NCBI RefSeq assembly: GCF_003202235.1
Contig: NZ_MASU01000021.1
Location: forward strand, 1-64,000
Reading direction: 5' to 3'
Length of the DNA: 64,000 nt
DNA from: Prauserella flavalba
GTDB taxonomy: Bacteria > Actinomycetota > Actinomycetes > Mycobacteriales > Pseudonocardiaceae
In this document: positions 40,937-58,751 of the stretch, one piece after another
Layout: each line of letters opens with the position of its first letter
Position numbering within the stretch: position 1 is the first letter of the stretch
The notes under the pieces: generated by a model
What the model was told of the DNA's origin: nothing
Seen by the model: only the letters and a program-made list of their open reading frames with translations
Database searches by the model: none
Translations under genes and position numbers: made by a program

Positions 40937-42055
40937 TCAGCGGACCGAGGGATTGTCAGCGGCGTCCCACTCTGCCCGCACACTGGCCGTGTCCTGCCCC
41001 GGAACCGGCGGATTGCTCGGCGTGCCCGGCCTGCTGCGGGAGAATCGCGGCGCGGGCATGGCCTGGCGACCGTTGCCCGGATCGGACACCGTGCTCCGGG
41101 CGACGAGTTGTGGGTGTGCCGCAGCCTCATCGAGGTCCAGGACCGGCGAGACGCAGGCGTCTGTGTCGGCGAAGGCCTCGGCCCACTCGTCCCGGGTCCG
41201 CGCCAGAAACGCCTCCGCGAGCACTGTGCGCAAGCGCGGCCAGCCGGAGCGGTCGAGCTGGTCCGGCAGTGCCGAAGAGTCCAGGCCGAGGACCATGAGC
41301 AACTGTGCGTAGAAGGCGGGCTCGACCGCACCGACCGCCACGTAGCGACCGTCCCTGCACTCGTAGGTGTCGTAGAACGGTGCGCCCGTGTCGACGACGT
41401 TCGTGCCCCTCTCCAGAGACCATAACCCCGCCTCGTGAAGACCCCAGACCATCTGCATCAGCAGACTGCTGCCGTCGACGATCGCGGCATCCACGACCTG
41501 CCCCTTCCCGGATCGCCCGCGTTCCAGCAGGGCCGCCAGGACTCCGAGAGCGAGGAACATCGAGCCGCCGCCGAGGTCACCGACCAGGTTGAGTGGTGGC
41601 ACCGGTGGGCCCCCGGCCCGGCCGATCGCGTGCAGAACGCCCGAAACGGCGAGGTAGTTGATGTCGTGGCCCGCCCGCTCGGCCAGCGGCCCGTCCTGCC
41701 CCCAGCCGGTCACGCTCGCGTAGATCAGGCGCGGATTCAGAGCCAGGCAGTCCTCGGGGCCGAACCCGAGCCGGGCCATGACACCGGGACGGAATCCCTC
41801 GATGAGCACGTCGGCACGCCGGACGAGAGCATCCACCAGCTCACGCCCTTCGGCTGACTTGAGGTCCGCGGTGACCGACCGCCGACCGCGTAGCACGAAA
41901 TCCTGCTCCGGAGGCAAGAGCACTGTCGCGTCACCACCCGGGCGCTCCACGCGGACAACATCGGCGCCGAGATCGGCGAGGAGCATCGCCGCATGCGGGC
42001 CCGGCCCCATGCCCGCAAGCTCGACGACTCGCACGCCACACAGAGGTCCACCCAT
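40937..42055 (-). CDS. CoA-transferase family III protein, alpha-methylacyl-CoA racemase-like
   Basis: A 372-residue protein. The family core is GMGPGPHAAMLLADLGADVVRVERP, DVLIEGFRPGVMARLGFGPED and GWGQDGPLAERAGHDINYLAVSG. The His in AGHDINY and the Asp in QVVDAAIVDGSSLL match catalytic His126/Asp156 of Mcr from M. tuberculosis, so racemisation of a 2-methylacyl-CoA is more likely than CoA transfer. It is the last gene of the minus-strand set beginning with the MaoC pair at 44618, and starts 2 bp after the ligase stop. Confidence 0.83.
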   Translation of the reverse strand: MGGPLCGVRVVELAGMGPGPHAAMLLADLGADVVRVERPGGDATVLLPPEQDFVLRGRRSVTADLKSAEGRELVDALVRRADVLIEGFRPGVMARLGFGPEDCLALNPRLIYASVTGWGQDGPLAERAGHDINYLAVSGVLHAIGRAGGPPVPPLNLVGDLGGGSMFLALGVLAALLERGRSGKGQVVDAAIVDGSSLLMQMVWGLHEAGLWSLERGTNVVDTGAPFYDTYECRDGRYVAVGAVEPAFYAQLLMVLGLDSSALPDQLDRSGWPRLRTVLAEAFLARTRDEWAEAFADTDACVSPVLDLDEAAAHPQLVARSTVSDPGNGRQAMPAPRFSRSRPGTPSNPPVPGQDTASVRAEWDAADNPSVR

Positions 42056-42057
42056 CG

Positions 42058-43743
42058 TCACGCCCCACGCACGGCCGCGTCGCGCGCATAACGCACACCT
42101 TCGCGCACCTCGACCGGGACGACCGGGATCGCGCCCTCGACGACCTGCGCTCGAAGCACGTGTTTCCGGATCTTGCCCGACGGTGTCAGCGGGAACTGAT
42201 CCACCGCCGCCCACAACACGGGAACCTTGGCGTAGGCCAAGCGATCGGCGCAGTACTCATAGAGCTCCTCCACCGGCAGCCGTCCCCCGTCCCTCACCCT
42301 GACCACGGCGGCAACGATCTCCCCCAACTTCTCGTCGGGGACGCCGATGACCGCGACATCGGCCACCGCAGGATGAGTGAACACGAGCTCCTCGATCTCC
42401 CGCGCGTAGAGGTTCTCCCCACCTCTGATGATCATGTCCTTGAGCCGGCCGGTGATCCGGACGAAACCACGTTCGTCCATTGTGGCCAGATCACCAGTAC
42501 GCAGCCAACCGTCTTCGGTGACTGTTGCCCGCGTGGCCTCCGGATTGCGGTAGTAGCCGTTCATGACCGAGTAGGCACGGATCCAGATCTCACCGGGATT
42601 GCCGCATGGCAGGAACTCGTGCGTGTGTGGATCGACGATGGCGAGCTCGACATTCGCCTGCGGCTGACCGATCGTCTCCGACTGGTCCTGAGGGGAATCC
42701 GTGAGGTGGGTCTGCAGGACGATGGGCCCCTCCGTCATGCCGTACACGATCGAGAACCCGCAGTCGAAGGCGTTCTTGACCCGCTCGACGAGTTCCACCG
42801 GCACGGTGGCGGCACCGGAGATGACCGCACGGAGGGTTCCGAGGTCACGGTTGCCGAAGTCGGGATCCTCCAGCATCGCGATCAGCATGGTGGGAACGGC
42901 GAGAGTAAGGGTGCACTGCTCTTCTTCAATGGTCTGGAGGACCTGTGCGGGATCGAAGCGGTTCAGGATCACGACCGTGCCGCGGTGCGACAGCGGTCCG
43001 ATCGTCGCGGTGATACAACCCGCGATGTGGGAGAGCGGCAGCATGTTGGCCCACACACCGCCATCCGCGAACCCCGCCCGGCGGGCGCAGTAGAACGACG
43101 TGTTGACGACCGCGAGGTGATGGAGCTCCGCGCCTTTCGGGAACCCGGTGGTTCCAGATGTGTACTGGATCTGCACGGTCGACGTCGGATCGAGCCGTGG
43201 CAAAGCCACCGCCGGCGGCTCCTTCCCGAGCAGATCGGGCCCCAGAAGATCGAGCACCTCACGAAGCTCGGGCAGGTTCGGTCGTAGCTCCGCGATGACT
43301 TCGGCCCTGGAGAAGCCCCGGCCGGTGTCGTCGTGGACGATCCCCGCCGCGTTCGACTGCCCCAGGATGTAGGCGAGCTCCGAGGTCCGATACGCCGGGT
43401 CAACGGCCACGAGCACCACCCCGGCCAGAGCCGCTCCCAACTGGGTGATGATCCACTCCGGCGAGTTGCTTCCCCACACGGCGACACGCTCACCGGTGTC
43501 GAAGCGCTCGAGGAGGTTGCCTGCTACCCGTTCGGCGGCCGTGAGCAGCTCGGCGTACGTCCACCGGCGCCGGGTCTCGAGGGGCGCGCTCCCGTCGACA
43601 AGGGCAACGCGATCGGGCACCTCGGCGGCGACCCGACGCAGCAGCTCTCCCACCGTGGTGGTCAACAGAGGCTCTTCGTCACTGGTCCAGTGGGAGAGCC
43701 GCGAGCTCCCCGACGATGTCGCTGGCAACATTGCCGACTCCAT
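42058..43743 (-). CDS. AMP-forming acyl-CoA synthetase
   Basis: About 561 residues from ATG 43743; ATG 43731 has GGAG 6 bases upstream and may be the true start. The phosphate loop is IQYTSGTTGFPKGAELH, then IVYGMTEGP, WLRTGDLATMDERGFVRITGRLKDMIIRGGEN and the catalytic Lys in LTPSGKIRKHVL. It makes an acyl-CoA from a medium-chain or cyclic acid. It is closely similar in layout to the ligase at 53593, which suggests two related acids in the regulon. Downstream of the MaoC pair. Confidence 0.9.
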   Translation of the reverse strand: MESAMLPATSSGSSRLSHWTSDEEPLLTTTVGELLRRVAAEVPDRVALVDGSAPLETRRRWTYAELLTAAERVAGNLLERFDTGERVAVWGSNSPEWIITQLGAALAGVVLVAVDPAYRTSELAYILGQSNAAGIVHDDTGRGFSRAEVIAELRPNLPELREVLDLLGPDLLGKEPPAVALPRLDPTSTVQIQYTSGTTGFPKGAELHHLAVVNTSFYCARRAGFADGGVWANMLPLSHIAGCITATIGPLSHRGTVVILNRFDPAQVLQTIEEEQCTLTLAVPTMLIAMLEDPDFGNRDLGTLRAVISGAATVPVELVERVKNAFDCGFSIVYGMTEGPIVLQTHLTDSPQDQSETIGQPQANVELAIVDPHTHEFLPCGNPGEIWIRAYSVMNGYYRNPEATRATVTEDGWLRTGDLATMDERGFVRITGRLKDMIIRGGENLYAREIEELVFTHPAVADVAVIGVPDEKLGEIVAAVVRVRDGGRLPVEELYEYCADRLAYAKVPVLWAAVDQFPLTPSGKIRKHVLRAQVVEGAIPVVPVEVREGVRYARDAAVRGA

Positions 43744-43782
43744 TCCTGATGTCGTTCTCGGCCCCTGCGAAAGCCACACCTC

Positions 43783-44211
43783 TCAACCAGGCATGGCGGG
43801 CGCGAGGACCGCTGAGGCACGTCCCTTCAGCACGACCGTCTCGCCTTTGGCCGCGACGACGGTGAGCCTGGCGACCTCACGGCCGTCGTCGCCGGACGCC
43901 ACGTCGGCGATCTCCCCTGTCAACGTGATCGTGTCGCCGACCAGTACGGGCGCCACGAAGCGGACCTCGAAGTCGGCGAGCCGCTCGACACCGCACCAGT
44001 CGGCGATCCACGCGGCGACGATGCCCGCCGTCATCTGCCCCATCGCGATGGGGGCGTCGAAGCCCGCGCGCCTGGCCAGCTCCGTGTCGTAGTGGAGGGG
44101 GTTGAAGTCCCCGCACGCCCCGGCGAACCGTAGAACGTCGGCCTGTGTGAGGGGTCCCAGGATCCGCTCGGGCAACTTCTGTCCCGTTTCCACGACGAAC
44201 GATCCGCTCAC
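43783..44211 (-). CDS. MaoC-like hydratase, hot-dog subunit B
   Basis: A 142-residue hot-dog protein with the hydratase-2 residues in DVLRFAGACGDFNPLHYDTELARRAGF (Asp and His), then APIAMGQMTAG. It is probably the catalytic half of a heterodimer with the upstream gene, as in HadBA-type or steroid-degradation ChsH-type dehydratases. GTG overlaps the upstream stop (GTGA), fitting 1:1 production. Confidence 0.85.
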   Translation of the reverse strand: MSGSFVVETGQKLPERILGPLTQADVLRFAGACGDFNPLHYDTELARRAGFDAPIAMGQMTAGIVAAWIADWCGVERLADFEVRFVAPVLVGDTITLTGEIADVASGDDGREVARLTVVAAKGETVVLKGRASAVLAPAMPG

Positions 44212-44618
44212 GTGCTCGGCCTCTCGATCACGACATCTTCCTCCGTCGCGACGATCTGCCCGGTCGCGTCGACGAAGTCGGTCTCCAACGTCAGCACCCG
44301 CAAATCGCCGCCCGACCCCGGCTTCCGCTCGTCCTTCACCACGCGTCGTGTTCCGACGATCATGTCGCCGACGACCATCGGGCGCCGGTAGGTCCAGCGG
44401 ACGGAGCCCACCACCACGCGCCCGATGTCGAGTCCGAGCTGAGCGACCCACTCACGCTGGTCGCGATAGTGGAGGCTCACGACGACGTACGTCGGGGTTG
44501 CGACGACGTCGGCGTGCCCCCTGGCCACGGCGACCTCCCGATCGGTGTAGACGGGATCCTCGGCGAAGGTCGCCCGCGCGAACTCCCGCACCTTGCCCCG
44601 CTCCACCTCGAACGACAC
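44208..44618 (-). CDS. MaoC-N / FAS1-like dehydratase, hot-dog subunit A
   Basis: A 136-residue hot-dog protein of the MaoC_dehydrat_N (HadA/ChsH-like) type: VREFARATFAEDPVYTDREVA, then VATPTYVVVSLHYRDQ and WTYRRPMVVGDMI. It lacks the catalytic D..H of subunit B and probably gives the substrate pocket. GTG start at 44618. It is the first gene of this minus-strand set, with a TGGTCTGACCA operator 38 bp upstream. Confidence 0.82.
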   Translation of the reverse strand: MSFEVERGKVREFARATFAEDPVYTDREVAVARGHADVVATPTYVVVSLHYRDQREWVAQLGLDIGRVVVGSVRWTYRRPMVVGDMIVGTRRVVKDERKPGSGGDLRVLTLETDFVDATGQIVATEEDVVIERPST

Positions 44619-44739: not shown

Positions 44740-45522
44740 TCAGTCGGCAGGGACGTCGATCTCGACCCGGTCCTCGACGAGCTTGACGGCCGAGGCGTAC
44801 GCGTGCACGTGCTTGCTCATGCGACGAGCGGCGGCAGCCTCGTCCTGGTCCCTGATCGCCTGGGTGACCGCCTCGTGCGCGCGGGCCGTCGCCTTGCGGA
44901 CGTTCTCGTCGACGAAGCTGCGGTTCTCGGTCGACAGGTAGATCGCCTTCGACAGCGCCGACATCAGGCCGACGAGTAGCTCGTTGTGGCTGGCCTCGGC
45001 AACCCCGACGTGCCAGTCGACGTTGGCCTGCAAGAAGTCCGCCAGCGAGCCGGCCGACCGCGCCATGGCGGCGTTCGCCGCGTCGATGCGCTCGAGATCG
45101 GCATCCGTGCGCCGCCTCGCCGCCAACTGCGCGAGCATGGGCTCGATCGTCTCGCGTGTCTCGAGCAGCGTTTCCATGCGAATCCGACGGCCCTTGATGA
45201 ACATGCTGACCGTGCTGGCGACCGACTCCTCACCCGGCAGGCGGACGAACGCACCGCCGGCCCGTCCGGTCTTGAGCCTGACGAATCCCTGTGCCTCGAG
45301 GATGCGCAGCGCCTCGCGCACCGTCGTGCGGCTCATCTGCGCCTGCGTGACCAGGTCCCGCTCCGGTGGCAGGGCCGTGTCCTCGGGGAAGTCACCGGAG
45401 AGGATGCGCTCGCGCAGCGTGTCCGCCAGCACGTCCGAGGCCTTCGGAACCTCGATATGGGGCAGCTGCACGAACGTCCGGACCGTGGTGGCCTGCTGGT
45501 CTGTGTCACGTTCCATGGACAT
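44740..45522 (-). CDS. FadR-type GntR regulator (FCD domain), probable regulator of the cluster
   Basis: A 260-residue regulator with an unusually long N-terminal arm (28 residues), then a winged HTH: VLADTLRERILSGDFPED, then LPPERDLVTQAQMSRTTVREALRILEAQG. The FCD domain follows (ETIEPMLAQLAARR, HVGVAEASHNELLVGL). It is the last gene of the minus-strand dehydratase set, 18 bp after the activator gene. Five sites with a TGGTCTGACCA-like core lie at promoters of this cluster, so it probably controls the whole set, including itself, in response to an acyl-CoA. Confidence 0.88.
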   Translation of the reverse strand: MSMERDTDQQATTVRTFVQLPHIEVPKASDVLADTLRERILSGDFPEDTALPPERDLVTQAQMSRTTVREALRILEAQGFVRLKTGRAGGAFVRLPGEESVASTVSMFIKGRRIRMETLLETRETIEPMLAQLAARRRTDADLERIDAANAAMARSAGSLADFLQANVDWHVGVAEASHNELLVGLMSALSKAIYLSTENRSFVDENVRKATARAHEAVTQAIRDQDEAAAARRMSKHVHAYASAVKLVEDRVEIDVPAD

Positions 45523-45540: not shown

Positions 45541-46473
45541 CTAGACCACGCGACCAGACGGCGCTGTCAACGTCAACATGGTGACACTCGACTCTGTCTT
45601 GCTACCGGCGCAGTCAGCGCATGATCCTGATCCGCCGTGGTCATGGGGAGGAGCCGGGGCAGTCGCGTTCTGGTCCGGCTGCGAGCCTCCGTCGAGCGAC
45701 TCGGCCGCGAGCAGTGCCGCACCGTAGGCACCGGTGATCTGGGGGTTCTCCGGAATCAGAAGTTCCTCACCCAACGCCTCTGACAAGGAGTGGACCACCG
45801 CCGCGTTTCGTGCGACGCCACCGGTCAGGGCGACCGGCGAGGCCTTGCCGACCTGACCGATCAGCCCGAGGGTGCGAGCGGCGGCCGCATGGTGGACCGA
45901 GGCCGCGATATCGGCGGGATCATGTCCCTTGGCGAGCAGAGCGATCACCTCCGTGACCGCGAAGGTTGCGCACAGGCTGCTGATCTCGAGATCCGCCTTC
46001 CCCCTGCTCGCGAACTCGCCGAGGGACTCGATGTCGGTTTCGAGCGCGTGGGCGAGGCCCTCGTAGAAGCGACCGGTACCGCTTGCGCACCGATCGTTCA
46101 TCGCGAAGCGTTCGACCCGCCCTGCCTCGTCGACCTGGATCGCTTTGGTGTCCTGGCCGCCGATGTCCACCACGAGCCGCACCCCCGGGAACAGCGCCGC
46201 GACGCCCCGGGCGTGCGCACTGATCTCGGTGAAGACGAAGTCGGCGCCGCCCGGAACGAGTCGTCGCCCGTAGCCGGTGGCGGCGACGGCCCGCACCAGG
46301 TCGCGCTCGATCCCGGCTTCGCCGAAGGCCTCGTCGATGGCGCGCTGAAGCCCCTTCCGGCTGACCGTGCCGGTCTCGACGACCGCGGTCGCGACGATCT
46401 CGCGCCGCTCGTCGATCACCACGCACTCAGCCGACGTAGACCCCAGGTCCATGCCCACGACGTAGGCGCTCAT
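45541..46473 (-). CDS. ATPase activator of 2-hydroxyacyl-CoA dehydratase / benzoyl-CoA reductase (BadF/BadG/BcrA/BcrD family)
   Basis: A 310-residue ASKHA ATPase that passes one high-energy electron to the dehydratase/reductase at the cost of ATP. Phosphate loop 1 is MDLGSTSAECVVID, phosphate loop 2 is VVDIGGQDTKAI, and the adenosine motif is ALTGGVARNAAV. Cys129 (NDRCASGTGRF) and Cys168 (SSLCATFA) match the pair that holds one [4Fe-4S] cluster between two monomers, with nearly the same spacing as HgdC. The C-terminal ~45 residues (Asp/His/Cys-rich, GGSGSCADCAGS) are an added tail. Start ATG 46473 with AAGGAG. One activator gene suggests a homodimer. Confidence 0.88.
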   Translation of the reverse strand: MSAYVVGMDLGSTSAECVVIDERREIVATAVVETGTVSRKGLQRAIDEAFGEAGIERDLVRAVAATGYGRRLVPGGADFVFTEISAHARGVAALFPGVRLVVDIGGQDTKAIQVDEAGRVERFAMNDRCASGTGRFYEGLAHALETDIESLGEFASRGKADLEISSLCATFAVTEVIALLAKGHDPADIAASVHHAAAARTLGLIGQVGKASPVALTGGVARNAAVVHSLSEALGEELLIPENPQITGAYGAALLAAESLDGGSQPDQNATAPAPPHDHGGSGSCADCAGSKTESSVTMLTLTAPSGRVV

Positions 46474-46535
46474 CAGCACTCCTTCTCCGCTACCTACCCT
46501 GACCGCATCCGCCGGGACGCACCGTCCCGGCCGGG

Positions 46536-47861
46536 TCAGTTTCGCGCCCGCTTGGCATCGATCGTCTCCAGCAACGCGGCGAGGCGCGTCTCCAGGATTT
46601 CATCCTTGTAGAAGGCCGCGTCGGCGATGTCGCCTTCGAAGAAGGCCGTCGGAATCCCGAGCTGGTTCTCGGCGACGCGGGCGAGCAGGTGCTGGTGGTT
46701 GGTGTAAGCCCGGCAGGTACGCGACGCGTGGAAGATGACCCCGTCGATCCCGTAGTCGTCACAGTCCTTGGTCATCGCCTGCTTCAGCGTCTTGAATCCC
46801 TGACTGTTGGAACACAGCAGGTAATGCTGCGCCAGTCCCCGCAACGGGTTCTCCGGATCGATCAGCTGAGGTTCCTGCCAGAAGTTCTGGTGGGTGTAGC
46901 GCCCGCAGATCACGGCAGCATCGGCGTCGGCGAACTTCCTGGCAAGCCAGCCGAGCTTGTTCCAGTTCATGATCCCGTCAAAGTACAGGCGGTACCGTTC
47001 GTCGGCCACGCCGGCGACACCGCTGGCGAGCCGGTCGGCGACCTCGTCCTTGACGCCCTGGAAGTAGTCGATGAGGCGCTGCTCGGCAGGCATGAAGTTG
47101 ATGTGCGCGATGCTCGCGACCCAGTCCCAGTACGTCGCGGGGGCTGGCTTGGCCATGCAGAGCGCCATGGCTTCCCGGCGCAGCTGCGAGGCGGCCTTGA
47201 TGTAGCTCATGATCTCGCCGAGCTTGTCGTGGTCGAAGGGCCGCCCGGTCTGAACCTCGAGGAACTCGATCAGTTTCTCGAGCTGGTCCACCACATAGTC
47301 GGTGGCTGTCTCCCACTCCTCGCCGACGAGGTAGCCCGCATCCGGTTTGCTGCCGAACATGTACGGCAGCGAGAGCGTGAAGATCGGGACCTTCTTGCCG
47401 AGGATCCGGTAGGACATCTGGTCCCACTGCTGCCCGGTGCTACAGCCCTGGTAGCCGTTGACGAAGAAGTCGGGCTCCGGGAGACGGCTCGCGAGCTCCC
47501 GTTGGTCCACCGTGTCGACGATGCCCGTCTCGCTCTCGCCGAAATCATTGGTGAGGACCGCACACCCCAGGTGCGTGCGCGAGTAGGAGCACAGCTCGTT
47601 CACGTAGCCGTACTCCTCCCCCGCGAGCTGTGCCGGGCCCTCGAGGTGCTGAGCCGCCAGCCGAGCGGAGAAGGCCTCGCCGTGGCACCACGAGATTCCG
47701 GCCGCTTGGAACAGCGGGTTGAGCGCGTGGCCGTTGTACCAGACGACCTGGGCGCCACGCTCCCGCGCGGTGAACAGCTCGTCCCAGTACGCGCCGACCA
47801 GTTCGCCGCCGCGGCCCGTCATCCTGAGCCGGTTGGACTTGTCTTCGAGCAGACTCGCCAT
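46536..47861 (-). CDS. 2-hydroxyacyl-CoA dehydratase / benzoyl-CoA reductase subunit, HgdA/BcrB type
   Basis: A 441-residue catalytic subunit. Three Cys positions expected to ligate a [4Fe-4S] cluster are present: Cys91 (NELCSYSRTHLG), Cys140 (NGYQGCSTGQQWD) and Cys383 (ASRTCRAYTN). ELCSYSRT and H.SRTC..Y are typical of the family. With the other subunit and the activator it would dehydrate a 2-hydroxyacyl-CoA by a ketyl radical, or reduce an aromatic ring of a CoA ester. These activities are oxygen-sensitive. Start ATG 47861 with GGAAGGGA. Sequence alone does not tell dehydratase from reductase. Confidence 0.85.
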   Translation of the reverse strand: MASLLEDKSNRLRMTGRGGELVGAYWDELFTARERGAQVVWYNGHALNPLFQAAGISWCHGEAFSARLAAQHLEGPAQLAGEEYGYVNELCSYSRTHLGCAVLTNDFGESETGIVDTVDQRELASRLPEPDFFVNGYQGCSTGQQWDQMSYRILGKKVPIFTLSLPYMFGSKPDAGYLVGEEWETATDYVVDQLEKLIEFLEVQTGRPFDHDKLGEIMSYIKAASQLRREAMALCMAKPAPATYWDWVASIAHINFMPAEQRLIDYFQGVKDEVADRLASGVAGVADERYRLYFDGIMNWNKLGWLARKFADADAAVICGRYTHQNFWQEPQLIDPENPLRGLAQHYLLCSNSQGFKTLKQAMTKDCDDYGIDGVIFHASRTCRAYTNHQHLLARVAENQLGIPTAFFEGDIADAAFYKDEILETRLAALLETIDAKRARN

Positions 47862-47893
47862 CGTGTTCCCTTCCGTGCGGGGTCGCACCCGCG

Positions 47894-49069
47894 TCAGGCA
47901 GTCGGCACCCGCGTGAGCGTCCTGCTGCGCTTGGCCTGTTCGAACATCGCCTCGATCCGCGTGCGCATGGTCTCGAGCGGCATCCCCTCGTGCTCGGTTT
48001 CCAGGAGCAGGTGGGGGATCCCCTTCGCTTCGAGCGCCTTGCGGAGTTCGGGGAGGTAGAGCATGTGCGGTTCGCAGTACTTGACGAGCAGCGAGATCAC
48101 CACTTCGGCGCCGCTGGAATGCACTGCGTTCAGAAGGTAGGTGTCCCAGTCGACATCGGACTGGGCACGAGTGGGACAGGGGATGTTGACGTTGCGGTCG
48201 AGGTACTGGCCCACGAGAGCGTCGACGGGCGAGCCGGACTCGTCCGCGTCCGTCGAGATGTAGCGGGCGCCGTGGAAGAGGTCGTCGTCCACCACGATGC
48301 CGCCGCTTTCCTCGATCACCTCCAGCAGCTCCGGCTTGGGCGCATGACAGAAGTGCCCGGAGAGGTGGACCCGGACACGGTCGTCACGCGGCGCGGCCGA
48401 GGACTGCGCGACCAACTCCTCCAGAAGCGCGTTATGTTCCTCGCGCTGCATGACCATGCTCGACTTCACCATGGTCTGCAGCTCGCCCGAGGTGAACCGC
48501 GAGTCTCCAGAGCGTCGCTGCTCGTACAGAGCGCGCAGCAGCCTGCGACCACGGTTGTAGGTCTTGATGCTCTCGCGGAGCCGCTCGTCGGTGATCTGGA
48601 CGCCGGCGAAGGACGACAGCTCGTCGACGAAGTCGGTCATCGTGAGCCGGGCCTGGTCGGTCGTCCACGGGTCGTTCATCGAGGAGATGAGCTGACCGAA
48701 GTAGAACCGCCGGCCGGCGGTGAGCTCGCGGATCACGTCGGCGGCGCCGATGAGCTGGATGCAGTGGTCGGCCATGAAGAAGCCGTCGTAGGCGTCGAGG
48801 CGGCCCGTGGCGGCCTGGTCGGCGAGGTTGCGGGAGTAGCCACAGTTGAACTCGCTCAGGAGGTTGTTGCCCAGCGTGATCGGATTGCGGTCCTCTTGCA
48901 CGATCACGGGCAACAGGCCTGCCGCGTGGGCGATCTCAGCCGGGAAGTTCATGGGGAACGCGGCGATCGCGCGCCCTCCGGTCCTCGCCTTCCACTGCTC
49001 GACGTAGCCGGTCGGGTCCTCCGCGGCCCTCGACATGGCCGCCAGTGGACTCACCGCTGTGTGCTCCAT
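47894..49069 (-). CDS. 2-hydroxyacyl-CoA dehydratase / benzoyl-CoA reductase subunit, HgdB/BcrC type
   Basis: A 391-residue partner subunit. Its own likely cluster ligands are Cys76 (EFNCGYSRN), Cys103 (ADHCIQL) and Cys332 (VKYCEPHML). AFPMNFPAEIAHAAGLLPV is the usual N-terminal signature. It is the first gene of a four-gene minus-strand set (subunit, subunit, activator, FadR). Start ATG 49069 with AGGAAGGAAGG. A TGGTCTGATCA operator sits 47 bp upstream. No ferredoxin gene lies next to it, so the electron donor must be encoded elsewhere. Confidence 0.85.
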   Translation of the reverse strand: MEHTAVSPLAAMSRAAEDPTGYVEQWKARTGGRAIAAFPMNFPAEIAHAAGLLPVIVQEDRNPITLGNNLLSEFNCGYSRNLADQAATGRLDAYDGFFMADHCIQLIGAADVIRELTAGRRFYFGQLISSMNDPWTTDQARLTMTDFVDELSSFAGVQITDERLRESIKTYNRGRRLLRALYEQRRSGDSRFTSGELQTMVKSSMVMQREEHNALLEELVAQSSAAPRDDRVRVHLSGHFCHAPKPELLEVIEESGGIVVDDDLFHGARYISTDADESGSPVDALVGQYLDRNVNIPCPTRAQSDVDWDTYLLNAVHSSGAEVVISLLVKYCEPHMLYLPELRKALEAKGIPHLLLETEHEGMPLETMRTRIEAMFEQAKRSRTLTRVPTA

Positions 49070-49169: not shown

Positions 49170-50429
49170 TCACTCGTGTGTGTCCAGGGAGCTCAACCCG
49201 CGTTCGAGCGACTCGCGGTGCGCCGGGGCCGCGACGGCGATCAGCCTCCGGGCGCGTTCGGCGACCGTGCACCCGGTGAGCAGCGCGATGCCGTGCTCGG
49301 TGACGACGGCATCGACGTCGACTCGCGCCGTGGAGACGACCCCACCGTGGAGCGCTGGCACGATCGTGGACTGCCCCTTCACCTCCGACCTCAACGCGAT
49401 GATCGAACGCGCGCCGGTCAGGGACGCGGCCCTGCTGAAATCCACCTGTCCGCCGACGGCGCCGATGTGCACGCCCCGCGACAGCTCCGCGCCGACCTGG
49501 CCCAGCAGGTCGACCTCGATCGCGGAGTTGATCGACACGAGCGACCTCAACCGCGAGAGCACGGCGGGCGCGTGCGTGTAGCTGGCCGGCCGGAACTCGG
49601 CGGGCATCTCTGGGATCCGGTCGTAGAGCGACGCCGATCCGAGTGCCGCCCCCGTGACGACGAGACCCGGGTCGATCTCCTTACGTGCGCCGGTGAGGAC
49701 GCCCTTCTCGATCAGGGTCAGCACGCCGTCGGTGATCAAGCCCGTGTGCATGCCGAGGTCGCGGTGCCCCGACAGCGATTCCAGGACGGCGTTGGGCAGG
49801 GTCCCGACGCCGATCTGGAGCGTGTCGCCGTCCTCGACGAGCGAGGCGACGTACGACGCGATGCGCCGGTCCGCGTCGTCGGGCGGCCGGGCGATCGACT
49901 CCCGCAACGGCCGGCAGGTCTCGATGACGGCGGAGAACCGGCTCAGAGGAAGGCGAACGCCCCCCACGGTCGGCGGCATGCGGTGGTTGATCTCGGCGAC
50001 GAGCCTGGTCGTGTGAGGGATCGCGTCGGCGGCGTAGTCGACGCCGATGCCCAGCCCGACCTTGCCGTCGGGCCCCGGCGGTGAGACCTGGACGAGCCCC
50101 AGGTCGGTCGGCAGCTGGCCGCGCTCGAACATGCGCGGGATCGACGAGTAGTGACAGGGCACCACCTCGAGCAACCCGTGCTTCGACAGCCCGCGCAGCT
50201 GTCCGAGCCCGCCGTAGGACAGGACGGTGAGGCCGTCCGGGAGGTCACCGGCGAGCCGCTCGTTCCAGGTCAGTCCGCTGAAGGCGCGGATCGGGCCGAT
50301 CGAGTCGACCTGATCGAGGAGTGTGTCGACCAGCGGCTCGGGCTCGGCACCCGCCTGACTCCACCACAGGCCGCCGCCGGGCCGCAGCAGCCTGGTGAAG
50401 TCGATCTGGCCGGCGAGGGACATCGTCAT
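49170..50429 (-). CDS. CoA-transferase/CoA-hydrolase (acetyl-CoA hydrolase / 4-hydroxybutyrate CoA-transferase family)
   Basis: A 419-residue family I CoA-transferase-like enzyme. The C-terminal half contains TEHGIALLTG, typical of the family, and GVHIGAVGGQVDFSRAA, plus IGVGTLPNAVLESL in the first half. The usual catalytic Glu lies in the (S/N)E.G..(A/V) stretch near INSAIEVDLLGQVGAE. It swaps or hydrolyses CoA on a short or dicarboxylic acyl group. It is the last gene of the long minus-strand set from 59547; its ATG overlaps the thiolase stop (ATGA). Confidence 0.82.
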   Translation of the reverse strand: MTMSLAGQIDFTRLLRPGGGLWWSQAGAEPEPLVDTLLDQVDSIGPIRAFSGLTWNERLAGDLPDGLTVLSYGGLGQLRGLSKHGLLEVVPCHYSSIPRMFERGQLPTDLGLVQVSPPGPDGKVGLGIGVDYAADAIPHTTRLVAEINHRMPPTVGGVRLPLSRFSAVIETCRPLRESIARPPDDADRRIASYVASLVEDGDTLQIGVGTLPNAVLESLSGHRDLGMHTGLITDGVLTLIEKGVLTGARKEIDPGLVVTGAALGSASLYDRIPEMPAEFRPASYTHAPAVLSRLRSLVSINSAIEVDLLGQVGAELSRGVHIGAVGGQVDFSRAASLTGARSIIALRSEVKGQSTIVPALHGGVVSTARVDVDAVVTEHGIALLTGCTVAERARRLIAVAAPAHRESLERGLSSLDTHE

Positions 50430-51616
50430 ACCCGCTGCACCAGCGTGGCGGTGCCGAGGCCGCCGCCGCAGCACATCGTGACGAGACCGGTCTCCACGTC
50501 GCGGCGCTCCATCTCCGCCAGGAGGGTGGCGAAGAGCCGCGCGCCGGTCGCGCCGACCGGGTGGCCGAGCGCGATCGCGCCACCGTTGACGTTCACCTTG
50601 TCGAGATCGGCCTTGAGCTCCTGCTCCCAGGCGAGCACGACGGACGAGAACGCTTCGTTGACCTCGATGAGGTCGATGTCGTCGATCGTCATCCCGTTGC
50701 GCTCGAGCAACTTCCGGGTCGCGGGAATCGGTCCGGTCAGCATGATCGCCGGGTCGACACCGACGGTGGTCTGGTCCAGGATCCGCGCGCGCCTGGGCAG
50801 ACCGAAGCGGTCCACGGCCGAGTCCGAAGCCAGGACCAGCCCCGCGGCCCCGTCGGTCATCGGGGACGCGCTGCCCGCGGTGATCCTGCCCGGGTGCGGG
50901 CCGTCTTCGGGGCGGAAGACCGGCTTGAGGCGGGCGAGGGACTCCACCGACGAGTCGGCCCTGATGCCCTGGTCGCTGGTTCGCACGGCCCCGTCGAGCT
51001 CGAAGGGGATGATCTCCCGTTCGAAGCGACCTGCGGACACGGCGTCGGCCGCGAGCCGGTGCGATCGCACGGCGAACTCGTCCATCGCCTCGCGGGTCAG
51101 TCCCCACTGCTCGGCGATCCGCTCCGCGGCCTCCCCCATCGACGGGAAGTCCCACACCTCGAGCAACTCGGCCGGCCATGCCGGGCCGTAGAGCTTCTCG
51201 ATCTCGCCGACCGCCGCCATCGGGATGTGGCCCATGTGCTCGACTCCGCCCGCGATCACGACATCGTGCGTGCCTGACGAGACGCAGGCCGCCGCCATCG
51301 CGACGGCGCTCTGGGCCGAGCCGCAGCGCCGGTCGAGCTGCGCGGCCGGGACCATCGGCGAGTAGCCGGCGGTCAGCCAGGCGTTGCGCCCCACGTTGCG
51401 CGACTGCTCACCGAACGGGGCCGTGTTGCCGATGAGCACGTCCTCGACGTCGGTGTGGGCGAGACCGGTCCCGGCCAACAGCGCCTGGTAGACCGTCGCG
51501 AGCATGGTGTTCGGGTGCACCTCGCGGTACCACCCCTTCTCGCGGTGGCCGCGGCCCATCGGGGTGCGGAGCGCCTCGACGATCCACGCGTCGCGGCCGG
51601 TTCCTGCGAACGCCAT
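50426..51616 (-). CDS. Thiolase (acetyl-CoA C-acyltransferase)
   Basis: A 396-residue thiolase. The nucleophile Cys is in AAQLDRRCGSAQSAV, the second active-site set is VNEAFSSVV and GGAIALGHPVGATGAR, and the catalytic Cys/His region ends MCCGGGLGTATLV. It cleaves 3-ketoacyl-CoA to acetyl-CoA and a shortened acyl-CoA. ATG 51616 overlaps the stop of the SDR gene by one base. Confidence 0.94.
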   Translation of the reverse strand: MAFAGTGRDAWIVEALRTPMGRGHREKGWYREVHPNTMLATVYQALLAGTGLAHTDVEDVLIGNTAPFGEQSRNVGRNAWLTAGYSPMVPAAQLDRRCGSAQSAVAMAAACVSSGTHDVVIAGGVEHMGHIPMAAVGEIEKLYGPAWPAELLEVWDFPSMGEAAERIAEQWGLTREAMDEFAVRSHRLAADAVSAGRFEREIIPFELDGAVRTSDQGIRADSSVESLARLKPVFRPEDGPHPGRITAGSASPMTDGAAGLVLASDSAVDRFGLPRRARILDQTTVGVDPAIMLTGPIPATRKLLERNGMTIDDIDLIEVNEAFSSVVLAWEQELKADLDKVNVNGGAIALGHPVGATGARLFATLLAEMERRDVETGLVTMCCGGGLGTATLVQRV

Positions 51617-52371
51617 CAGATCACCGTCCCTCCATCGACCGGCAGGATCTGCCCGGTGATGTACGAGGCGGCGTCCGAGGCGAAGAACACGAACGTCGCC
51701 GAGACCTCCTCGGGCTCCGCCCACCGGCCGAGGGGGATGCGCGCGAGGGTCAGCTCCGCGAGCTTCTCGTTACCGCGGATGTTGGCGGTCATGTTCGTGG
51801 CGGCCAGCGGTGCGACCGCGTTGACCGTGATGTTCCTCTTCGCCAGCTCCCTGGCCAGTGACTTGGTGAGCCCGACGACCCCGGCCTTCGCCGCGCCGTA
51901 GTTGGCCTGGCCGATCGTCCCGACCAGGCCGGCCGCGGACGTCACGTTGATGACCCGGCCCGTGCCGTCCTGAGGCAGGTACGGCAGCACAGCGTGCGTC
52001 ACGGTGAAGGTGCCGCCCACGTGCACGTTCAGCACGTCGTTGAACTGTTCGGCGGTCATCTTGTCGAACATCGCGGGGGAGATCGCGCCCGCGTTGTTGA
52101 CGACGATGTGGACGGTGCCGTCACCCAGCGCGGCAGCGTTTTCCGCGGCAGCGGCAGCGGCCCCGGCGTCGCGGACGTCGACCGCGGCCGAGCGCGCCGT
52201 GCCGCCCGCCGCCGTGATCTCGTCGGCGACCGCCTGCGCGGCGTCCTTGTCGAGATCTGCGACCAGCACTGCCGCTCCGGAAGCCGCGTAGGCCTTCGCG
52301 ACAGCGGCGCCGATGCCGTTGCCCGCGCCCGTGACGAGGGCGGTGCGGCCGGCGAGGGAGAAGAGAGACAT
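51616..52371 (-). CDS. SDR-family 3-hydroxyacyl-CoA dehydrogenase-like protein
   Basis: A 251-residue FabG-like oxidoreductase. Motifs are TGAGNGIGAAVAKAY, NNAG, VINVTSAAGLVG with Ser, and YGAAKAGVVGLTKSLA with Tyr/Lys. It lies between an acyl-CoA dehydrogenase and a thiolase, where a 3-hydroxyacyl-CoA dehydrogenase is needed. It overlaps both neighbours by one base. Confidence 0.88.
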   Translation of the reverse strand: MSLFSLAGRTALVTGAGNGIGAAVAKAYAASGAAVLVADLDKDAAQAVADEITAAGGTARSAAVDVRDAGAAAAAAENAAALGDGTVHIVVNNAGAISPAMFDKMTAEQFNDVLNVHVGGTFTVTHAVLPYLPQDGTGRVINVTSAAGLVGTIGQANYGAAKAGVVGLTKSLARELAKRNITVNAVAPLAATNMTANIRGNEKLAELTLARIPLGRWAEPEEVSATFVFFASDAASYITGQILPVDGGTVI

Positions 52372-53537
52372 CAGTAGCTCCTGGGAAGTCCGAGAACGTG
52401 CTCGCCGAGGAAGTTCAGGACCATCTCCTGGCTGATCGGCGCGATGCGGGTGAGGCGGGCCTCGCGGAAGTAGCGGGAGACGTGGTACTCCTCCGAGTAC
52501 CCCATGCCGCCGTGGGTCTGCAACGCGCGGTCGGCGGCCGCGAAGCCGGCGTCGGCGCAGAGGTACTTGGCGGTGTTCGCCTCACGACCGCAGGGCTGAC
52601 CGCTGTCGTAGAGCCAGGTCGCCTTCCGCAGCACGAGTTCCGCGGCGTCGAGCCGGGCGAGCGCATCGGCGAGCGGGAACTGGATGCCCTGGTTCATGCC
52701 GATCCGCCGGCCGAACACCTCGCGCTCGTTGCCGTATCGGACGGCGCGGCTCAGTGCCGCGCGGCCGATGCCCAGTGCCTCGGCGGCGACCAGACAGCGC
52801 TCCGGGTTGAGGCCGTCGAGGATGTACTTGAACCCCCGTCCCTCCTCGCCGACCCGGTGCTCCTCGGGGATGCGAAGATCGTCGATGAACAGCTCGTTGG
52901 ACGTGACCGCGTTGCGGCCCATCTTCCTGATCGGACGGATGTCGACGTGCGCGCGGTCGAGGTCGGTGAAGAAGAGCGTCAGGCCGTCGGTCTTCCTGCT
53001 GACGTCCTCCGCCTTGGAGGTACGCGTGAGCAGGAGGATCTTGTCCGACTCCATCGCCTTGGAGATCCACACCTTGCGGCCGTTGACGACGTAGTCGGTG
53101 CCGTCCCGCCTGGCGAACGTGGTGATCTTCGTGGTGTCCAGCCCGGCGCCCGGTTCGGTCACACCGAAGCAGACGTGCAGGTCTCCCTTCACCAGCCGGG
53201 GAAGGTTCTCCTGCTTCAGCTCGTCCGAGCCGTGCATGATCACCGGGTGCATGCCGAAGATGGACATGTGCATGGAGCTCGCGCCGTTCATGCCCGCGCC
53301 CGAGGCGGCCACCTCCTCGAGGAGTATCGATGCCTCGGTGATGCCGAAACCACTGCCGCCGTACTCCTCGGGGGTGGTGATGCCGAGCCAGCCGCCGTCC
53401 GCGAACGCCTGGTAGAACTCGGTCGGGAACTCGTGGTTGGCGTCCTTCTCCAGCCAGTACTGGTCATCGAACTTGGCTGCCAGGTCGGCCGCTGCCGTGC
53501 GGATCAGTTGCTGGTCCTCGGTGAGTTCGAAGTTCAC
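52371..53537 (-). CDS. Acyl-CoA dehydrogenase
   Basis: A 388-residue flavoenzyme from GTG 53537 (GAAGGGGG upstream). Marks are LGITTPEEYGGSGFG, CFGVTEPGAGLDTTKI, KVWISKAMESDK, LQTHGGMGYSEEYHVSRYFREARLTRIAPISQEM. It makes the 2,3-double bond of an acyl-CoA with FAD. In the pathway proposed it could act on cyclohexanecarboxyl-CoA-like or chain acyl-CoA. One of two such enzymes in the regulon. Confidence 0.92.
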   Translation of the reverse strand: MNFELTEDQQLIRTAAADLAAKFDDQYWLEKDANHEFPTEFYQAFADGGWLGITTPEEYGGSGFGITEASILLEEVAASGAGMNGASSMHMSIFGMHPVIMHGSDELKQENLPRLVKGDLHVCFGVTEPGAGLDTTKITTFARRDGTDYVVNGRKVWISKAMESDKILLLTRTSKAEDVSRKTDGLTLFFTDLDRAHVDIRPIRKMGRNAVTSNELFIDDLRIPEEHRVGEEGRGFKYILDGLNPERCLVAAEALGIGRAALSRAVRYGNEREVFGRRIGMNQGIQFPLADALARLDAAELVLRKATWLYDSGQPCGREANTAKYLCADAGFAAADRALQTHGGMGYSEEYHVSRYFREARLTRIAPISQEMVLNFLGEHVLGLPRSY

Positions 53538-53592: not shown

Positions 53593-55236
53593 TCACGCCT
53601 TCGGAGCCGTCGGTGCGAGCGAGCCGCCCATGATGGAGTCGCGCAGCGCGAACTTCTGGATCTTCCCGGCCGCTGTGGTCGGGTACGCGTCGACGAAGAA
53701 CCAGACCGACGGGGCCTTGAAGCGGGCGATCTTGTTCCGGCAGTACTGCTGCAGATCCGAGGGCGTGACCGTGGACGAGGGAACGGTTCGGACGACCGCT
53801 GCGACAACCTCGCCCAGCTCGTCGTCAGGAATCCCGAGCACGACGGCTTCCGCCACGTCGGGGTGCTCGAAGAGCACGTCCTCGACCTCACGCGGGGAGA
53901 TGTTCTCCCCGCCGCGGATGATCATGTCCTTCAGCCGGCCGGTGATCCGGAGGTACCCGCGTTCGTCCATCGACCCGAGATCGCCGGTGTGCAGCCAGCC
54001 CTCCTCGTCGAGCGTGAGACGGGTCGTCTCCGGGTCGTCGAGGTAACCGATCATCATCTGGTGGCCGCGGCCGCAGATCTCGCCCTCGACGCCGAGCGGG
54101 ACGATGCTCCCGTCGACGGGGTCCGCGATCTTGATCTCGACCTGCTTCACGGGCCGTCCGATGGTCTCGGACTGGTCCTCGGGGGTGTCGTCGACACGCG
54201 TCGTGGTGACGACACCGGAAACCTCCGTCTGCCCGTAGATGTTGGTGAAGCTGCAGCCGAACGCCGCCTTCGTCCGGCGGATGAGCTCGGCCGGAACCGG
54301 CGCGGCGCCGGACACGAGCGTGTGCACGCTCGACATGTCCCGCTCGGCGAAGCGGGGGTGGTCGAGCAGCCTGATCAGCATCGTCGGCACGAAGAGACCC
54401 ATGTTCACCCGCTCGCTCTCCATGAGCTCCAGCACGAGACCGGGTTCGAACTCGGGTGCGACGACGTGGGTGCCCTGGCGCGCGACGATGCCGAGGCAGG
54501 CCGTCACGCAGCCGCCGACGTGGAAGAGCGGCATCGCATTGAGCCACACGTCACCGAGTTCCATCCCGCACTGGGTGAGGACGAGGTTCGGCGTGTTGCA
54601 GATGCCACGGTGGTGGAGGAGCACTCCCTTGGGGAACCCGGTCGTCCCGCCCGTGTACTGGATCTGCGCCGGGGACGCGGCGTCGACCACGGGTAGCTCG
54701 ACGTCCGGGCGACCGGCCGCGAGGAAGTCCTCCCACTCGCTGAAGCGCAGGATCGTCCGCACCGACGGAATGTCCTTGGCCAGCCGCGTGACCGTGGCGA
54801 GGAGGTCGTGACCCCGGTACTCGTCAGCCAGGAAGACCCCCGCCGCCGCGGACTTGCGGAGGACGTACTCGATCTCGCGTTCCTGGTACGCCGGGTTGGC
54901 GGTGGCGAGGACGAGCCCCGCGAGGCCCGCGCCCAGCTGCAGAACCACCCACCGCGCCGAGTTCGGCGCGAGGATGAGGATCCGCTCCCCCGGCTCGAAC
55001 CGATCGAGCAGGGTGCGCGCCACCGATCGGGCCTCCTCGAGCAGCTCGGCGTACGTCCACCGGCGCCGCGCCGCGGGGTCGCGCAGGCCATCGACCAGCG
55101 CGACGCGGTCCGGCGCCTGTGCGGCCGCGCGCTCGAGCAGCTTGCCCACCGTGAGGTCGTTCTCGATCTGGTAGGACCTGTCGGCAGGCCAGTACGACGT
55201 CGTCAACGGAAGCGCCCGCGTCTTCTCCATGATCAT
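53593..55236 (-). CDS. AMP-forming acyl-CoA ligase, possibly for an alicyclic acid
   Basis: A 547-residue ANL ligase. The phosphate loop is IQYTGGTTGFPKGVLLH, then NIYGQTEVSGVV, WLHTGDLGSMDERGYLRITGRLKDMIIRGGEN, and catalytic Lys in TTAAGKIQKFALR. The opening (LPLTTSYWPADRSYQIENDLTVGKLLE) is like the 42058 ligase and like AliA/BadA-group proteins. In a set with BadH/BadI-like genes it probably activates a cyclic carboxylate. ATG 55236 with GGAGAA; ATG 55230 also possible. Confidence 0.9.
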   Translation of the reverse strand: MIMEKTRALPLTTSYWPADRSYQIENDLTVGKLLERAAAQAPDRVALVDGLRDPAARRRWTYAELLEEARSVARTLLDRFEPGERILILAPNSARWVVLQLGAGLAGLVLATANPAYQEREIEYVLRKSAAAGVFLADEYRGHDLLATVTRLAKDIPSVRTILRFSEWEDFLAAGRPDVELPVVDAASPAQIQYTGGTTGFPKGVLLHHRGICNTPNLVLTQCGMELGDVWLNAMPLFHVGGCVTACLGIVARQGTHVVAPEFEPGLVLELMESERVNMGLFVPTMLIRLLDHPRFAERDMSSVHTLVSGAAPVPAELIRRTKAAFGCSFTNIYGQTEVSGVVTTTRVDDTPEDQSETIGRPVKQVEIKIADPVDGSIVPLGVEGEICGRGHQMMIGYLDDPETTRLTLDEEGWLHTGDLGSMDERGYLRITGRLKDMIIRGGENISPREVEDVLFEHPDVAEAVVLGIPDDELGEVVAAVVRTVPSSTVTPSDLQQYCRNKIARFKAPSVWFFVDAYPTTAAGKIQKFALRDSIMGGSLAPTAPKA

Positions 55237-55270: not shown

Positions 55271-56032
55271 TCAGGCCATGGTCAGGCCACCACTGACCGA
55301 CAGCGTCTGTCCGGTGATGAACCCGGCCCCGTCGCTGGCGAAGAACCGGACGGCGGCGGCGATGTCGGCCGGCTCGCCCAGACGGCGCATCGGGACCGCG
55401 CGGACCATGGCCTGCATCGTCGCCTCGGCCTTCTCTTGCTTCTCCAGGACGCTCTCCATCGCCGGGGTCCGCGTGGGCCCGGGGCAGACCGTGTTCGCGG
55501 TGACGCCGGCACGCGCGGACTCGCGCGCGATGGTCTTGGTGAACGCGATGATGCCGCCCTTCGCACCGGAGTAGACGGCCTCCATCGAGGACCCCACCCG
55601 GCCCGCGTCGGAGCCGATGTTGATGATGCGACCGGCCTTGCGCTCGAGCATTCCCGGCAGCACCTGCCGGACGAACCGGAGCGCGGCCTTGAAGTTGACG
55701 TCGATGATCCGGTCCCAGAAAGTCTCCTCGGTGTCCACGAAGAGCAGGTGCTCATCGAAGCCCGCGTTGTTGACCAGGACGTGGATCGGTCCGACGGTCG
55801 TTGTGATCTCGTCCACGACGGCCGCGACACGGGCGCTGCCGGTCACGTCGACCCGATGCGGCGACGCGGCCAGTCCGCGGTCCTGGAGGGCCTTGGCCAC
55901 TTCGCTCGCCGTCGCCTCGTCACGGTCGACGATGGCGACGTGGAAGCCGTCCTCGGCCAGCGCCTCGGAGATCCCGCGGCCGATGCCCTGACCGCCACCG
56001 GTGACGATCGCAACTCGCTTGTCGGTACCCAC
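55271..56032 (-). CDS. SDR similar to 2-hydroxycyclohexanecarboxyl-CoA dehydrogenase (BadH)
   Basis: A 253-residue SDR from GTG 56032 (AAGGAG 8 bp upstream). TGGGQGIGRGISEAL, NNAG, IINIGSDAGRVGSSMEAVYS, GAKGGIIAFTKTIARE. The Ser loop GSDAGRVGSS, CPGPTRTP, and the end GFITGQTLSVSGGLTMA closely match the BadH of Rhodopseudomonas palustris as I know it. BadH oxidises 2-hydroxy- to 2-ketocyclohexanecarboxyl-CoA. Members also act on related 3-hydroxyacyl-CoA. Confidence 0.8.
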   Translation of the reverse strand: MGTDKRVAIVTGGGQGIGRGISEALAEDGFHVAIVDRDEATASEVAKALQDRGLAASPHRVDVTGSARVAAVVDEITTTVGPIHVLVNNAGFDEHLLFVDTEETFWDRIIDVNFKAALRFVRQVLPGMLERKAGRIINIGSDAGRVGSSMEAVYSGAKGGIIAFTKTIARESARAGVTANTVCPGPTRTPAMESVLEKQEKAEATMQAMVRAVPMRRLGEPADIAAAVRFFASDGAGFITGQTLSVSGGLTMA

Positions 56033-57962: not shown

Positions 57963-58751
57963 TCACTGAAACCGCGGCGGCCGCTTCTCGAGGAACGCCC
58001 GCATGCCCTCGCGTGCGTCCGGCCCGTCGAAGAGCGCCTCGACACGCGACACCTCGCCCGCCAGGCCCTCGGCGAGCGGGACCTCGAAGCTGGCGTCGAC
58101 CAGCTGGATCACGTCCGTCAGCGCGGGAATCGACAGCCCTGCCATACGCGTCGCGAGGCTGACGGCCTGTGCCTCGGCCTGGCCCGTCTCCGCGACGCGG
58201 TCGACCAGTCCCAGCTCGAGGGCTTCGTCCGCGTCGAGGAGCCGGGCGGTCAGCATCAGCTCGAGAGCGCGCCCGCGCCCGACGTACTTCGGGAGACGCT
58301 GGGTGGCGCCCGCACTCGGGATCAGACCGATCTTGGCTTCGGGAAGCCCCAGCTTGCCACCCCGAGCGGCAACGCGAAGATCGCACGCCAGCGCGAGTTC
58401 CAAGCCGCCGCCGAGCGCGCTTCCCTCGATCGCCGCGATCGTCGGCCGGTCGAGTGCCGCGACGCGCTCGACGGTCGAGCGAAGCCTCCGTCCGTACGCC
58501 ATGAAGCCGTCGCGGTCCACGTCGACCATCGTCTTGATGTCCGCACCGGCCGCGAAGAAACCGTCCACACCGGACGCGATCACGATGACGCGGGCACCGT
58601 CCTTCTCCGCGACGTCGAGCGCCTCGTCCAGGCCGTCGAGCAGCTGAGGCGCGAGCGCGTTGACGGGAGGGTTCTCCATCCGGATGACGAAGACGCCGTC
58701 CCCGCCTGCGGATGCGCTCACCGCCGTGGATGTGACCTCCGGGCTCACCAT
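57963..58751 (-). CDS. Enoyl-CoA hydratase, BadK-like
   Basis: A 262-residue crotonase. Oxyanion-hole segments FFAAGADIKTM and EGSALGGGLELALACDLRVA; catalytic Glu residues in ALGGGLELAL and GLPEAKIGLIPSAG. Both Glu residues are kept, so it should be a true hydratase. BadK hydrates cyclohex-1-ene-carboxyl-CoA to the 2-hydroxy form, which fits the neighbouring BadH- and BadI-like genes, but general enoyl-CoA hydratases look the same. Confidence 0.85.
   Translation of the reverse strand: MVSPEVTSTAVSASAGGDGVFVIRMENPPVNALAPQLLDGLDEALDVAEKDGARVIVIASGVDGFFAAGADIKTMVDVDRDGFMAYGRRLRSTVERVAALDRPTIAAIEGSALGGGLELALACDLRVAARGGKLGLPEAKIGLIPSAGATQRLPKYVGRGRALELMLTARLLDADEALELGLVDRVAETGQAEAQAVSLATRMAGLSIPALTDVIQLVDASFEVPLAEGLAGEVSRVEALFDGPDAREGMRAFLEKRPPRFQ

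Follow-up and report, generated by a model that had tools for sequence, protein, structure and literature searches.

A candidate ATP-primed radical acyl-CoA enzyme from a separate BCR/HAD lineage in Prauserella flavalba and other actinobacteria

The known members of the superfamily that joins class I benzoyl-CoA reductases (BCR) and 2-hydroxyacyl-CoA dehydratases (HAD) generate electrons of very low potential as well as ketyl radicals. They are known mainly from anaerobes, are regarded as sensitive to oxygen and are treated as anaerobic enzymes. What would such an enzyme do in the actinomycete Prauserella flavalba, whose genome looks aerobic, with five COX1 matches, no match to class III ribonucleotide reductase (NRDD) and weak partial matches to NarG, none of them over the cut-off? 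The genes that raise this question lie at 45541–49069 of the window, by which we mean the whole 64,000-nucleotide stretch analysed (positions 1–64,000 of contig NZ_MASU01000021.1). An earlier note, made from the sequence of the window, had called the system HgdABC/BcrABC-like. That description stands insofar as the proteins belong to the ATP-driven BCR/HAD superfamily and keep its ligands, but they are neither one nor the other: judged by profile scores and trees, they make up a separate lineage of the known superfamily that falls in no named family tested.

The operon and its cluster ligands

All three enzyme reading frames are open and intact. In their order on the minus strand they encode a C subunit resembling HadC, BcrC and BzdN (P0003; 47894–49069; HGD-D, PF06050, 216 bits; PDB matches MbdN, HadC and BzdN), a B subunit resembling HadB and BzdO (P0002; 46536–47861; PF06050, 182 bits; best solved relative HadB) and an activator ATPase of the HgdC/HadI type (P0001; 45541–46473; PF01869, 190 bits; TIGR00241, 226 bits, over its cut-off). 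The FadR regulator that had been placed in the operon is also there, as a GntR/FCD gene 18 bp downstream of the activator (44740–45522, minus strand; PF00392 and PF07729); it matches a FadR/GntR gene of a Rhodococcus ruber plasmid island at 65%. Catabolic genes on the same strand extend the surroundings of the operon on both sides. By homology, the C subunit is likely the electron-relay cluster subunit and the B subunit the substrate-binding catalytic subunit.

The earlier note had assigned three cluster-type cysteines to each catalytic subunit and a cysteine pair to the activator, and all of these are borne out among relatives, under different residue numbers because the earlier ones follow later ATG starts. 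In the B subunit, Cys100, Cys149 and Cys392 (formerly 91, 140 and 383) are kept in 53, 54 and 54 of 54 aligned relatives, the window being included here and in the counts for the other two proteins. Three further cysteines that had gone unmentioned, Cys109, Cys244 and Cys359, are kept in 51, 53 and 54 of the 54. The subunit thus has the three-Cys catalytic site together with the catalytic Glu71 (53–54 of 54), the combination expected of a BCR/HAD member. In the C subunit, Cys83, Cys110 and Cys339 (formerly 76, 103 and 332) are present in all 53 aligned relatives; Cys248 (52/53) and Cys305 (53/53), likewise absent from the earlier account, bring the conserved total to five. The activator pair, Cys131 and Cys170 (formerly 129 and 168), is kept in 51/51.

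The proposal of a single activator also holds. One activator match was found in 52 of 59 loci, two in four and none in three, so that most loci have one activator gene per enzyme set; the two activator genes of a heterodimeric BCR system were not found. Among the four loci with two matches, L018, L035 and L044 each hold two complete C–B–activator sets, which suggests two related substrates, and the second match in L055 scores 43 bits.

The activator carries a disordered C-terminal tail that had been singled out as unusual. The tail is real and conserved, but it is a trait of the lineage or family, and its conservation among relatives rules it out as an oddity of the P. flavalba genome. Its Cys-x-x-Cys pair is formed by Cys287, kept in 50 of 51 activators, and Cys290, kept in 49; the pair is invariant in a separate 30-row alignment, in which Asp269 is the only other tail residue conserved in at least 90% of rows. 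In an AlphaFold2 model of the activator, the predicted local distance difference test (pLDDT) value is at least 90 for 202 of 312 residues and drops below 50 in the tail at 273–286 and 292–312, while the intervening stretch with the cysteine pair does not fall below 50. Four deeper proteobacterial activator rows have two cysteines separated by three or four residues, and no such tail occurs in four compared rows of HgdC, YjiL, BCR and double-cubane cluster protein (DCCP) type. In the activator homodimer, a flexible cysteine pair of this kind could bind a metal or relay electrons.

A lineage of its own

Trees were built from 44 rows for each catalytic subunit, 20 of them from this family and only two of them proven HAD rows. 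For both subunits the family forms its own clade with 100/100 support; HadB/HgdA, Bcr/Mbd, Bzd, DCCP and the nine pairs sampled from small actinobacterial genomes all fall outside it. Several of the deep joins are on long branches and are marked as uncertain. The operon has the two PF06050 subunits and the one activator gene of a HAD system, and in both trees it falls outside the HadB/HgdA clade. The NCBIfam cut-offs are missed widely by the B subunit (HadB, 140 of the required 750 bits; BcrB, 91 of 487; BzdO, 78 of 449) and by the C subunit (BcrC, 151 of 421; BzdN, 134 of 454; HadC, 124 of 700), as are the DCCP equivalog cut-offs. Together with the trees, the equivalog cut-offs rule out a known HAD or BCR member.

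The active site was compared in the numbering of BzdNO, as found in the available part of PMC11971306. Cys95, Cys128, Cys380, Glu65 and Tyr97 of BzdO are kept in all 20 family rows. The pocket around them is changed, with His131 replaced by Gly, Ser44 aligned with Gly and Gln274 replaced by Ile. Gln274 contacts the thioester oxygen in BzdO, according to the same part of that paper; its column holds Ile in 20/20 family rows, in two HAD rows and in nine small-genome actinobacterial pairs, and Q, P, P and A in the four reductase rows that have a letter there. Directly behind this position lie P0002 residues 308–311, of which Asn308 also occurs in two BcrB rows and Trp309 in HAD and other rows. 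Asn310 and Lys311, as well as Gly53, His69 and Gly152, are invariant in the 20 family rows and appear in no other row compared.

For the C subunit, Cys36, 73, 100, 263, 293 and 327 (BzdN numbering) are common to BzdN and three DCCP rows, and from this co-conservation we take them as the double-cubane ligands; the double-cubane site of BzdN has six cysteines in the available part of PMC11971306. In the present family Cys36 and Cys263 are absent, their columns holding P and F/Y/W in 20/20 rows. Of the other positions compared, Arg267 is conserved throughout the 20 rows, Arg290 and His330 are conserved in 19 each, and Arg53 is not conserved. The idea that a five-Cys C subunit is unique was dropped when Cys was found in the same columns of Bcrlike_G253b and of five of the nine small-genome actinobacterial pairs. 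In all nine of these pairs (L110–L118) a HAD-like B subunit accompanies a HadC-like one that has the six double-cubane cysteines, and the pairs may form an undescribed group.

Set beside described systems, the operon resembles HadBC with its activator, the (R)-2-hydroxyisocaproyl-CoA dehydratase (PDB 3o3m, 4eht), in having two PF06050 subunits, a single activator, the three-Cys catalytic site, the catalytic Glu and C-subunit Cys73/100/293/327 without Cys36 and Cys263. It differs in a B subunit only 23% identical to HadB over the Foldseek alignment, in its separate clade, the Ser-to-Gly change and altered loop, and in the extra GxFC Cys, the activator tail and the occurrence in aerobes. The class I BCRs BcrBC, MbdON and BzdNO (PDB 9g87, 8s02) share its fold, cluster ligands and ring-acid gene neighbours; Bcr and Mbd also share the GxFC Cys, and one Mbd-clade row shares all five C-subunit cysteines. 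Unlike them, the family has a single activator, Ile at Q274 and a separate clade and, unlike BzdN, no double-cubane ligands. DCCP (PDB 6eno, 7yyl; Escherichia coli YjiM) is alike in superfamily and single activator, whereas the present system has two different subunits, lacks Cys36 and Cys263 and is distant in the trees.

The system is not special to one organism. A genome scan with P0002 returned 53 loci with best-segment identities of 53–69%; since the search patterns came from P0002 itself, these are near relatives by construction, and they include the near-duplicates L040/L042 and L046/L047. Actinobacteria account for 49 of the loci, in genera that include Rhodococcus, Gordonia, Nocardia, Amycolatopsis, Saccharopolyspora, Pseudonocardia, Nocardioides and Brevibacterium, and the remainder come from Zhongshania (two), Hydrocarboniphaga and Steroidobacter. 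Most of the genera with relatives are aerobes. Plasmid-borne relatives at 46–54% occur on R. ruber pmega_1, on two Sphingopyxis macrogoltabida plasmids, on Azoarcus KH32C pAZKH and in a Rhodobacteraceae strain. Every genome locus in which the three genes were all found has them in the order C–B–activator; the Sphingopyxis activator is encoded upstream, on the opposite strand. Within the host's order the occurrence of the locus is sporadic: no near relative was found in 59 other genomes of the host's genus, family and order, three of which match only with a Cys-poor HGD-D pair. A PF06050 match of any kind is present in 136 of 396 actinobacterial genomes, host included, and mainly in small genomes. 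In the titles and opening lines of abstracts of the best-ranked open-access literature, including PMC8473912, PMC9686372 and a paper that deals with an anaerobic lineage, no aerobic member is announced.

Dehydration, reduction or another chemistry

On balance, the operon would encode an ATP-primed radical acyl-CoA enzyme, for which a dehydratase is somewhat more likely than a reductase. The reading that we tentatively favour, and rate a little short of even, is a two-subunit BCR/HAD radical enzyme with a homodimeric, ATP-driven activator that in aerobes would serve to degrade cyclic acids as CoA thioesters via dehydration. A ligase of the island would make the thioester. The activator dimer, with one [4Fe-4S] cluster held between the monomers by Cys131 and Cys170, would spend ATP to place one electron on the cluster of the C subunit, from which it would pass to the three-Cys [4Fe-4S]-OH2 cluster of the B subunit, beside Glu71. 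The thioester would become a ketyl radical and lose its hydroxyl group, by dehydratase chemistry in which the electron is recycled, giving a product of the cyclohexene-carboxyl-CoA type; a 1-hydroxycycloalkane-carboxyl-CoA would fit as the substrate. The ring would then be opened by the neighbouring hydratase, short-chain dehydrogenase/reductase (SDR) and BadI/MenB-like hydrolase, and beta-oxidation would lead down to 3-hydroxy-3-methylglutaryl-CoA (HMG-CoA) and acetoacetate. The electron path is drawn by homology, and we infer the cluster types, dehydration over reduction, the alicyclic substrate and the role of the tail.

Dehydration is preferred because the activator is single, the B subunit is HadB-like and the double-cubane ligands are absent. 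Against solved structures, the B subunit scores 92 bits with HadB and 67 and 63 with reductases, and HadB is the best Foldseek match of its AlphaFold2 model (pLDDT 82; E 1.1e-20; TMq 0.81, with Mbd at 0.80 and Bzd at 0.77). Several observations weigh against this preference. The HadB and MbdO TM-scores are nearly equal, so that by Foldseek scores the predicted fold leaves dehydratase and reductase undecided. The family falls in neither the HAD nor the BCR clade, and in the trees HAD lies closer to Bcr/Mbd than to this family. The BcrC model gives the C subunit a higher score than the HadC model does, the GxFC Cys of this subunit is common to Bcr/Mbd, and the active-site Ser of HAD rows aligns with Gly; both the Bcr-like features of the C subunit and the altered pocket tell against an ordinary HAD. 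Because Bcrlike_G253b, a row of the reductase (Mbd) clade, has all five C-subunit cysteines, the case for reduction is slightly raised and that for dehydration slightly lowered. In the three loci without an activator none lies within reach, and two of these end directly behind the B gene. The neighbourhood was counted in those 41 of the 53 loci that span at least 16 kb and in 20 arbitrary control stretches, drawn without matching for catabolic islands from 11 genomes within the family and order of the host. A BadI-like gene lies near only 15 of the 41 loci (0 of 20 controls), the thiolase and ACAD52 types of the window near none (0/41, and 0/20 controls), and no neighbour gene names the substrate.

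Aromatics have oxygenase routes in aerobes, which counts against a class I BCR-like enzyme that would use ATP to drive the two-electron reduction of a cyclic CoA ester, aromatic or conjugated, and hand the product to BadH/BadI-like enzymes as in Rhodopseudomonas. So do the one activator gene instead of two, a B subunit nearer HadB with Ile at Q274, and the scarcity of [4Fe-4S] ferredoxin motifs, which occur in just 4 of the 59 loci and in one of these doubtfully. We regard such a reductase as unlikely, even though it would account for BcrC as the best NCBIfam model and MbdN as the best PDB match of the C subunit, and for the GxFC Cys and the five cysteines shared with the Mbd-clade row. The host's KGOR-type gene (649 bits against a cut-off of 483) could feed it with reduced ferredoxin, and among the neighbours, the BadI-, BadH- and AliB-like genes are reminiscent of the bad-ali set described in the available part of PMC9795900. 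A superfamily radical enzyme with a third chemistry fitting its own pocket, for example reductive dehydroxylation or a radical rearrangement, is unlikely but credible. The deep separate clade and the five residues invariant in this family alone suit it, whereas the cluster ligands and the catalytic Glu and Tyr are those common in the superfamily, the loop also holds Asn308 and Trp309, which recur in BcrB and HAD rows respectively, and the pocket differences may reflect only another substrate. A relic or moonlighting operon with no working radical enzyme is very improbable. The aerobic appearance of the host and the oxygen sensitivity ascribed to known members would agree with it, and the host's second HGD-D pair shows that the fold can persist after most cluster cysteines are lost; however, that pair belongs to a different branch, and in the present family the cluster cysteines are kept across dozens of genomes and the genes are kept together.

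Beyond the dehydratase that we favour, it is possible, though doubtful, that the family forms a third functional BCR/HAD class in aerobes. Its activator Cys-x-x-Cys would then be a swinging arm, the four thiols of the homodimer providing a second metal site (a rubredoxin-like Fe, Zn or Fe-S site) or a redox relay that recharges the bridging cluster or shields it from O2. This would enable a step in the breakdown of cyclic acids or terpenoids with no known use in aerobic pathways. A branch with a Cys-tailed activator in Rhodococcus, Gordonia, Nocardia, Amycolatopsis and other genera, partly on plasmids, makes the survival of such chemistry in air directly testable and indicates that the breakdown of alicyclic compounds by aerobes includes a step so far unrecognised. 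In the available parts of PMC4109377, PMC5906575 and PMC9795900, no such radical enzyme is named for the aerobic bad-ali or mrc route.

Catabolic neighbours and the host

The neighbourhood supports a cyclic acid, perhaps a terpenoid, as the putative substrate. In near relatives and controls, respectively, the counts were 40 and 0 for SDR c1, 35 and 0 for PaaX and 34 and 0 for the acyl-CoA ligase. CaiB (13), NMO-like (12), APH (10), P450 (8), CHC-CoA dehydrogenase-like (7), MFS (5), GntR (5), acetoacetyl-CoA-ligase-like (2) and HMG-CoA lyase (1) genes were less frequent, each with 0 in the controls. On these counts, the SDR, ligase and PaaX are core partners, the ring hydrolase accompanies about a third of the loci and the lower-pathway genes of the window only a few. 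Frames with the ferredoxin motif CxDCGACEPxCP lie near the enzyme genes at L007:7071–7413, L011:6862–7279 and L027:13608–13995 and are possible electron donors.

In the window, an acetyl-CoA hydrolase/CoA-transferase-like gene (49170–50430, start approximate; PF13336/PF02550; 64% to an R. ruber plasmid gene) lies directly upstream of the C subunit. It is followed on the same minus strand by genes for a thiolase (50426–51610; PF00108/PF02803; 68% to R. ruber), an SDR dehydrogenase (51616–52371; 71%), an acyl-CoA dehydrogenase (52371–53537; 84%), an acyl-CoA ligase of neighbour cluster c4 (53593–55236), a second SDR dehydrogenase (55271–56020), an enoyl-CoA hydratase (57963–58751) and a candidate BadI/MenB-like ring-cleaving hydrolase (58762–59547; TIGR03210, 302 bits, and PRK07396, 321 bits, both under cut-off). 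The SDR at 55271–56020 matches an SDR of the R. ruber island at 60% and one of KH32C, which we equate with the MrcD relative, at 46%. An acetate/acetoacetate-CoA ligase-like gene is on the plus strand (61730–63799), and an HMG-CoA lyase gene begins near 63868 and continues past the window's end. On the other side of the operon, all on the minus strand, are two MaoC-type hydratase genes (43783–44618), the second acyl-CoA ligase of cluster c4 (42058–43779), a family III CoA-transferase of the CaiB type (40937–42043; PF02515, 310 bits) and, beside a TetR gene, a P450 (37851–39026) whose closest model is that of pentalenolactone synthase (397 bits against a cut-off of 700).

Outside the window, 4 kb further on, is an SDR c1 relative (52%), accompanied by an HMG-CoA lyase (78%) and by a gene of the MenB type (L160:5159–5998; C21:67158–67997). 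The latter passes two MenB cut-offs (431 bits against 380 and 382 against 343), but within the catabolic island it is probably a ring-cleaving homologue for which the MenB name may mislead. The BadI equivalog cut-off of 468 bits, which would mark a bad-ali set, is reached neither by the hydrolase gene at 58762–59547 (302 bits) nor by this MenB-type gene (276 bits). Not counting the three enzyme genes, nineteen places in the contig interval 41–69 kb have one or more counterparts, at 39–84%, among the genes of the R. ruber megaplasmid region; that region also holds a P450, a ferredoxin, an FAD-dependent oxidoreductase and alcohol and aldehyde dehydrogenases. Shikimate or quinate, suggested as substrate by a ShiA-like MFS gene, was set aside, the match being under cut-off and the family broad. 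Steroid degradation was considered on the strength of the host genera only and was likewise set aside.

Like the bad-ali and mrc pathways, the surroundings combine a BadI/MenB-like hydrolase, SDR, hydratase, ligase and acyl-CoA dehydrogenase. On pAZKH, about 24 kb separate the enzyme genes from a set ordered MaoC–MaoC–hydratase–BadI-like–SDR, and this order matches mrc. In the available part of Petasch et al. (PMC4109377), KH32C proteins are the closest to MrcDEF of monoterpene ring cleavage, and from the gene order the pAZKH set would be these MrcDEF-like genes of KH32C.

The second HGD-D pair of the host (G000:C5:700305–702640; L125:6306–8641) has a B-type subunit without any of the three cluster cysteines and a C-type subunit that keeps one of three, and no activator match was found in its 15-kb stretch. 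These losses rule it out as a paralogue of the same function. Close relatives of the pair occur in three other genomes (G002, G028 and G047).

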